Of a stretch of 64,000 nucleotides of DNA, positions 42,886-63,891 are shown piece by piece. Below the pieces are notes generated by a model. The model saw only the letters and a list, made by a program, of their open reading frames with translations. It made no database searches and was not told the DNA's origin. Numbering within the stretch: position 1 is the stretch's first letter; every line of letters begins with the position of its first letter. The DNA is from Tubiluchus corallicola (lineage: Eukaryota > Priapulida > Priapulimorpha > Priapulimorphida > Tubiluchidae): the NCBI GenBank assembly GCA_030141605.1, contig JAQGDQ010000005.1:1550180-1614179 (forward strand), in the 5' to 3' direction. The position numbers and the translations under genes are program-made.

Positions 42886-43587
42886 ATGAAAAATCATCAC
42901 GTTTTCCTTTAACAACCGAGAGAAAAATAACAAAACTTTAATTTTAAACATTTGATATTACAAATTTAAAAACAACAACTTGCAAATGTAGCAGAAAAAG
43001 TACACAGTTAGCTTTGGACCAAAAAACTCTGTAGAAATGCAGATGAGAGAGGAACGCGTGTATGTAAAAACCAGTTCTGGTGTAACAGCCACTCCAGAAT
43101 ATACCCGGGTATAGTTCAGCCTAGCCCAGAATAAACCCCAGGGTGTAATTTGGCCTAGCTTACTTTATACCCTTAGACATAAAGTAGCCTGGTCCGAAGT
43201 ATACCTTCCTATGCCAGTTTAAACCCCTTTCAAAATCAATAATAAAACTAATAAATAAAGCCAGTCAGGTTTTAAGTTAGAAACATATATTGCTATGACT
43301 TAAAAATATGAATACGGAGTGGTGTATTATATATGATAATCAGTGATTGGTTTCTAACACGAGTCTTGCATGCAATTGTTTGTCAAAAGTGATACTAGAA
43401 TGTTACAAAGAATTAATTGGGTAAAAATAGCAGCTTTTAATATTGATCTGAACATAGCCTTTTTACTTGAAGTATTGCAGAAACGCCGTTTTCCGACAGT
43501 TATGAATTACTCCATTATAAAACTTGAATATTTTCATGTGAAATAATAAGGACCCTTAGCAAACAACATTAAACTTATAACTTTCAG

Positions 43588-44130
43588 GATTCCCGCTCAT
43601 TACATCATCTACTTTTGTGTTCGTTAATGGGATTCGTTAATGGGCTGCCTTTGGCCTTAAATTGGAGGAATCAGTTAATCTTGGTCTTACATCCCAAACG
43701 TCTTTTTAATACCAAAAGAGATAGTAATTGCTATTTTCGAGCAGTCAGTTACATTTTGACAGGATCTGAAAACAGCCATGCTGTCATCAGAGATGCTGTT
43801 GTACAGCACATGAACAGTGATATCACTGAAAAGCTACAAAAGTACTTAAATGAAAATGTTGCAGAGTACACAGAGTGTTCTAGGATGTTTCAAGATGGAG
43901 TTTGGGCAACTGATGCAGAGATAGTGGGCACAGCTAGTTTATTGGGTTGTGACATTATAGTGTCTAGTAAATGTGGACAGTCCAATGAATAGTTGACATC
44001 TCCACCAAGTTTTCAATTAAGTTCCACTTCAGAACATGCTTTTTACCTCACAAATCTTTCTTGGCATTTAAATGTTGTTTTAATTGTTTCTACTGAATTT
44101 AAATGGATTTCCAACTTAAAAGAAATTTGA
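43588..44130 (+). pseudogene. OTU-like cysteine protease fragment, interrupted
   Basis: OTU proteases cleave ubiquitin chains; the catalytic pair is a Cys in a D-x-N-C motif and a C-terminal His. Here RDSNCYFRAVSYILTG carries the expected Cys at 43729-43731, with Ser where Gly is usual. WATDAEIVGTASLLGCDIIV matches the family core. A TAG at 43990-43992 breaks the frame, but it continues open to 44130, and FYLTNLSWHLNVV supplies the expected His at 44065-44067. The frame is open back to an acceptor-like CTTTCAG at 43581-43587, so it may once have been a 3' exon. Whether it is a host pseudogene or the element's own gene is not settled. Confidence 0.6.
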
Positions 44131-44473
44131 GTCTATAAAAACATCTAATTTTTTCTGCTTTGAAGTTGTAAATACTATTAATATGGACTGTTGCCATGAC
44201 TATGTAATATTGTATAATGTCCACTTCAGATACAGAGAGCTGAACTCAATTATTGTATAATTATAATGGTAACTATCATGTAACATGTAACTATCAATGA
44301 ATGTACATTAATGTTAATATTCGTGTAGATAAGCTTTTTGTTGTTCGGTGCTGCATAAAACAAGTCTTTCGTTAATACAGATGTTGAATTATTTTGTATT
44401 TACACTCCTAGAATTACATTTGATACACTATGTGGGATAATGGGCAATACCACATTATTAGCAAAAATATAAA

Positions 44474-44545
44474 AATAATAAATAATAATAATAATAATAA
44501 TAAAAGTAAGATAATAATAATAAAACGAGTAAATAATAATAAGCT
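44474..44545. repeat. AAT microsatellite
   Basis: AATAATAATAATAATAATAA-type units, interrupted once, inside the OTU element. Confidence 0.9.
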
Positions 44546-44958
44546 CTTTGATTTAGAAAATGAGGGGTATATTCTGGACACTGGGTATATTCTAGTCTAG
44601 CCCACTTTATAGCCAAGGATGTATACTGGCCTAGTCCAAACTATACCATGGGTATTAAACAGCCTAGCCTGGAATAACCCCGGGTACACTCTGGACATAG
44701 AACATGAATGATCATTGTAAGGTCCATTACATTTTACTTAGCTTTCAACATTTTTCACACCAGTTTTTAAGATTAAAATATATTTTAGCAAGGATATAAT
44801 GGATTTTTCATCTGGTTATATGAATACTAGCTGCTATATACAGCATTTACATGTATCACTCTGGGTATGTGCTTAAATCTGTGTATGTTCATAAAACTGT
44901 TTAACTTGATTTTGCATTCTTATAACATTTTTGTTCATTTTTTAGATATTTTCCGAAT

Positions 44959-63891
<18,933 letters not shown>

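Follow-up and report, generated by a model that had tools for sequence, protein, structure and literature searches.

The window, a 64,000-nucleotide stretch of Tubiluchus corallicola DNA on contig JAQGDQ010000005.1 (C177 in our labelling), contains a fragment of an OTU-like cysteine protease gene lying between two arrays of small palindromic repeats (Table 1). The element lies ~260 bp upstream of an apparent first coding exon, whose ATG is at 44959; the exon that follows matches the Spectrin repeat with an E value of 3.7e-6, slightly under the curated cut-off. By sequence recognition, we take this gene to be alpha-spectrin, and the element looks like an insertion upstream of the start codon of an alpha-spectrin-like gene, or in an intron preceding that codon.

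Table 1. Features of the element, in window coordinates
Feature	Position	Strand	Basis or remark
CTGG, remnant of the left CCGG target-site duplication	43077–43080		CCGG found here in related copies; empty sites hold one CCGG
Left terminal inverted repeat	43081–43205	+	14 left ends aligned; TGTAACAGCC terminus, then TCCAGAATATACCC and three palindromic units
Array unit 1 (GGGTATA..CCTAG..AAACCC)	43107–43138	+	Family D1
Array unit 2	43141–43172	+	Family D1
5' inner region	43206–43572	+	No recognised coding domain
OTU-like cysteine protease domain	43573–44085	+	PF02338, 32 bits; OTUD1 4bop
3' region common to non-autonomous copies	43948–44560	+	Left edge is the deletion junction of eight copies
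Right terminal inverted repeat, incomplete (inner and middle parts)	44565–44695	-	Lacks the outer ~26 bp and the right copy of the target site
Right-array units	44583–44614, 44617–44648, 44650–44681		Within the right terminal inverted repeat

The array units are 32–34 bp long and display, on both sides (43107–43172 and 44583–44681), GGGTATA...TATACCC arms and a CCTAG core; a third, diverged unit extends the left array to ~43205. Alignment of the left array with the reverse complement of the right one gave a score of 42.5, compared to a maximum of 15.5 for 500 dinucleotide shuffles, and alignment in the direct register a score of 28 (shuffle maximum, 16). Since each score exceeds its shuffle maximum, both registers are real. 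More specifically, the CCTAG cores share one orientation on the two sides, the inverted match being due to the termini and to the arms of the palindromes. The first-pass annotation had described inverted arrays of inward-facing, ~34-bp palindromic units: the inversion is confirmed for the arms and termini, but it coexists with a direct match, and the cores point in the same direction on both sides. The unit and its CCTAG motif are likewise confirmed, but the units are imperfect palindromes, five of the six majority units being palindromic beyond nearly all shuffles (0–4 of 300) and the third left unit only weakly so (30 of 300).

Between the arrays, the reading frame open from 43573 to 43992 matches the OTU profile PF02338 with 31–32 bits, above the curated cut-off of 23.3 (profile positions 3–95 of 128 at 32 bits). 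The frame is closed by a TAG stop at 43990–43992, beyond which the C-terminal half of the domain goes on, with the conserved C-terminal strand and the His region, to about 44085. The domain starts with the catalytic-type motif DSNC (DxNC criterion of the PF02338 family), and its histidine is found at the expected position near the C-terminus, within SWHLNVV, in the part that follows the in-frame stop. The best match among solved structures is OTUD1 (4bop, E 1.8e-5); a single-sequence AlphaFold model of the read-through product (pLDDT 31) was too poor for use. The arrays, the matching ends and the OTU fragment reported in the first-pass annotation are real. Of the OTU matches recorded elsewhere in the genome, none lies inside an array-flanked element, and several, judged by eye, resemble host OTU genes. 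A second, degraded OTU fragment (C460:341092–341247), 47–48% identical to the window OTU, has no array ends, and no integrase was found near it; it is perhaps the fossil of a related Ginger1 element. Finally, at C813:68000–73500, an OTU-domain ORF and a reverse-transcriptase-like ORF of the same strand are separated by no more than about 2 kb; the OTU domain may be carried there by a retrotransposon or other element.

The element had been delimited as 43093–44695, and these limits do not hold. Alignment of the flanks of related copies established that the TCCAGAATATACCC ends are subterminal, the other copies reaching ~24–26 bp farther out, and that the copies begin with TGTAACAGCC on both sides. 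In the window copy, the true left terminus, TGTAACAGCC, is at 43081, directly preceded by CTGG, a decayed CCGG, and, compared to the other copies in an alignment of 14 left ends, it bears an internal deletion of ~13 bp; on the right, the outer ~26 bp seen in other copies are absent. The lack of a target-site duplication at the original limits was explained once the flanks of the other copies had been aligned. The majority left and right ends can be aligned over ~138 bp, which defines the terminal inverted repeats. The window copy is defective, with both edges damaged; without its right terminus and with an interrupted OTU frame, it should be immobile.

Most copies display a TGTNR terminus (TGTAACAG) at their outer edge, on both sides. 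The four bases outside TGTAAC, taken by eye from flank printouts for 21 ends, are exactly CCGG at 10 ends and within one mismatch of it at 19, the nine single mismatches being mostly changes expected from CpG decay. Given a genomic background of 0.00086 CCGG per position, the probability of 10 exact matches among 21 ends is about 8e-26. To distinguish a target duplication from a longer inverted repeat, we fused the two flanks of each of seven elements, and those of the window copy, in silico and used them as queries against the genome. The C99 insertion, which reads GTGATACCGG-element-CCGATAGAT, sits in a repeat, and the paralogue on C1776 is uninterrupted, with GTGATACCGG followed directly by CAGAT. 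Similarly, the C127 insertion reads AAATGCCGG-element-CTGGAACAA and the matching C1027 paralogue AATTGCCGG followed by AACAATG. At both sites, insertion was clean and duplicated the 4-bp CCGG without other change, since there is one CCGG in the empty site and two in the filled one. The joined-flank search found no empty site for the window copy, which keeps only the left, decayed CTGG and for which a CCGG duplication is presumed from its relatives.

To our knowledge, Helitrons neither duplicate their target nor bear terminal inverted repeats. A Helitron2/Helentron remnant is an alternative, since these rolling-circle elements of animals have short inverted repeats in a subterminal position and small palindromes close to their ends, and OTU domains have been reported in animal Helitrons (PMC2836005). 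However, the copies bear true terminal inverted repeats at both edges and the empty sites reveal a 4-bp CCGG duplication, so that we consider this origin very improbable and reject it.

The genome (343.5 Mb) was searched with the ends of the element. The left and right ends of the window copy match 16 and 11 places, respectively; majority end sequences gave more matches and define ~15 insertion loci. The arrays are found together with the 3' part of the OTU sequence in at least eight other copies with different flanks, standing on one or both sides of it. The first-pass annotation had regarded arrays and OTU fragment as one element unless the two never occurred together elsewhere, and this co-occurrence upholds its proposal. 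It refutes the opposite reading, namely that a pair of satellite-like repeats happens to surround a fossil host OTU gene: the array unit does stand alone, as a 40-copy array on C2009, but eight loci with different flanks carry arrays beside the same OTU 3' sequence, and we regard a chance neighbourhood as exceedingly unlikely. Moreover, the eight copies have one common junction, TTGGGCAT/GTGACATTGTAGTG, where the left terminal inverted repeat abuts the OTU frame at window position 43948. What is left of the frame in these copies can still be aligned with the OTU C-terminus (66–70% identity on C36 and C2289). Thus, there was a parent that possessed both arrays and OTU; its middle part was lost once, and the deleted form then spread to several sites with unrelated flanks. 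Mobilization of this form probably occurred in trans, since it cannot encode its own transposase. To judge from the identity between copy pairs (0.76–0.88, K2P 0.13–0.30), the family is old. The 5' half of the OTU domain is present only in the window copy, on the basis of which it would be attributed to the parent; part of the 5' inner region (~43260–43480) is also found in the C448 copy, which has the left end too.

Note that three loci (C177:1257.87–1258.74 kb, C1173:93.9–94.8 kb and C1886:225.7–226.6 kb) each display two elements in head-to-tail fusion, with an identical fusion point at AACAGCC: a right-end unit ending in GGTATAAAACAG is followed directly by the CCCAGATTACGCCCC with which the next left end is marked. 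The three pairs probably represent a single composite element, which moved as a whole.

As defined by Bao, Kapitonov and Jurka (PMC2836005), Ginger1 transposons have TGTNR ends, terminal inverted repeats of about 40–270 bp and an integrase-like transposase that carries an OTU or Ulp1 domain at its C-terminus. Their 4-bp target duplications are CCGG in 75% of cases and CCGT/ACGG in 24%; families have been reported in Hydra, Aplysia, lancelet and aphid, and short non-autonomous copies are known (PMC2836005). Because the TGTNR ends, the CCGG target, the length of the terminal inverted repeats and the OTU domain all fit this description, the element is very probably a defective DNA transposon of the Ginger1 superfamily, from a family of low copy number. 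Its named relatives would be the OTU-bearing Ginger1-1_HM, -2_HM, -3_HM and -11_HM of Hydra and Ginger1-1_AC of Aplysia, with which it shares the TGTNR termini, the 4-bp CCGG duplication, terminal inverted repeats within the 40–270 bp range, the OTU domain, short non-autonomous derivatives and a low copy number (PMC2836005). The family is a new one of Ginger1 type, matched to the published families by description. Ginger2/Tdd elements also have TGTNR termini, mostly 4-bp duplications and, expectedly, a gypsy-type integrase, but Ginger2 prefers AT-rich RTATAY targets, and it is for Ginger1 that OTU and Ulp1 domains are described (PMC2836005). Thus, the first-pass annotation, which had proposed the remnant of an undescribed element carrying a deubiquitinase, was right about the remnant of an OTU-carrying transposon, but the kind of element is known and bears the hallmarks of Ginger1.

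Unlike in the OTU-bearing Ginger1 elements, a Gypsy-like integrase (H2C2, DDE, GPY/F, YPYY) was not found in the element, its copies, the 64-kb window or the other loci examined. Gypsy elements dominated the matches to PF17921, of which 150 out of 631 were scored, and all 20 H2C2 zinc-finger regions fetched looked like Gypsy retrotransposons. An integrase profile built from 13 Gypsy-like regions, which gave 150–418 bits in a leave-one-out control, yielded a best fragment of 7.4 bits across the family loci, the other loci examined and the window. No integrase was found when the C448 copy was read past the common 5' region, no fusion of the OTU domain to a transposase was seen in the window copy, and no full-length copy with a transposase, such as the first-pass annotation had envisaged, was found among the 150 of 631 candidates scored and the loci examined. 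Absence of the integrase is expected from deletion derivatives, for which we infer an autonomous partner; the OTU domain would be the C-terminal part of the lost transposase. Alternatively, the element might belong to some other DNA-transposon superfamily that makes 4-bp duplications, and resemble Ginger1 only in its CCGG target and OTU domain, since the catalytic gene was not seen (150 of 631 integrase candidates and the loci examined), but the TGTAA terminus, the CCGG target, the length of the terminal inverted repeats and the C-terminal OTU domain fit Ginger1 at every testable point, which renders this alternative improbable.

Two further observations concern integrase sequences. In Gypsy-type polyproteins on C1139, C858 and C2008, the integrase lies upstream of the apparent reverse transcriptase; this arrangement, opposite to the usual one, is that of Gmr1-like elements. 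In addition, integrase matches recur with matching spacings and identical scores on C1752, C1831, C1974, C2072, C2074 and C2107, which suggests duplicated or uncollapsed assembly segments.

The Ginger1 assignment leads to the following scenario. The autonomous parent would have encoded a transposase with a Gypsy-like integrase and a C-terminal OTU domain, between terminal inverted repeats of ~138 bp. The integrase would bind the ends, probably at the palindromic array units; after cleavage, it would insert the TGT...ACA ends into CCGG at positions staggered by 4 bp, so that the CCGG is duplicated. The duplication is observed, the enzyme presumed. As for the OTU domain, Bao et al. suggest a role of such domains in ubiquitin signalling during repair (PMC2836005). 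Internal deletions would have removed the integrase part, leaving the OTU part in the window copy, and a second derivative, deleted from the left terminal inverted repeat into the OTU gene and presumably mobilised in trans, makes up most other copies. The window copy, whose right terminus was later lost and whose OTU frame acquired a stop codon, is dead.

The only unusual feature of the element is its ends, made of small palindromic repeats that form a satellite array elsewhere in the genome. As far as we know, PMC2836005 does not describe palindromic tandem units within Ginger1 terminal inverted repeats. On C2009 (72828–74151), 40.4 copies of the 33-bp unit of the terminal inverted repeat (GTATAGTTTGGCCTAGGACAGTTTAATCACGGG) constitute a 1.3-kb tandem array, with 94% matches between neighbouring units and no element termini. 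Either the array arose from a terminal inverted repeat, or the terminal inverted repeat took up units of a pre-existing satellite. Tetris of Drosophila virilis provides a precedent for repeats internal to terminal inverted repeats growing into satellite arrays (PMC4079207): like the present element, it has tandem repeats inside its terminal inverted repeats and satellite-like arrays elsewhere, but its units are of ~220 bp and it is foldback-like, whereas the units here are palindromes of 33 bp within Ginger1 ends. A speculative reading, which we hold to be rather doubtful, is that the terminal inverted repeats are arrays of 33–34-bp palindromic integrase-binding sites able to detach and expand, and that the C2009 array grew from a Ginger1 end. 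If true, this Ginger1 group would be characterized by foldback-like ends of array type, and its integrase-binding sites could turn directly into satellite DNA.

In conclusion, although the practical importance of the finding is modest, it adds a Ginger1 family to another animal genome, including its non-autonomous derivatives and a CCGG duplication proven by empty sites. Where OTU fragments adjoin repeat arrays in animal DNA, Ginger1 can account for them, with no need for a new class of element. The anatomy of the family is now clear enough to ask about the function of the repeats inside the terminal inverted repeats, which may serve as integrase-binding sites and as the seeds of satellite arrays.
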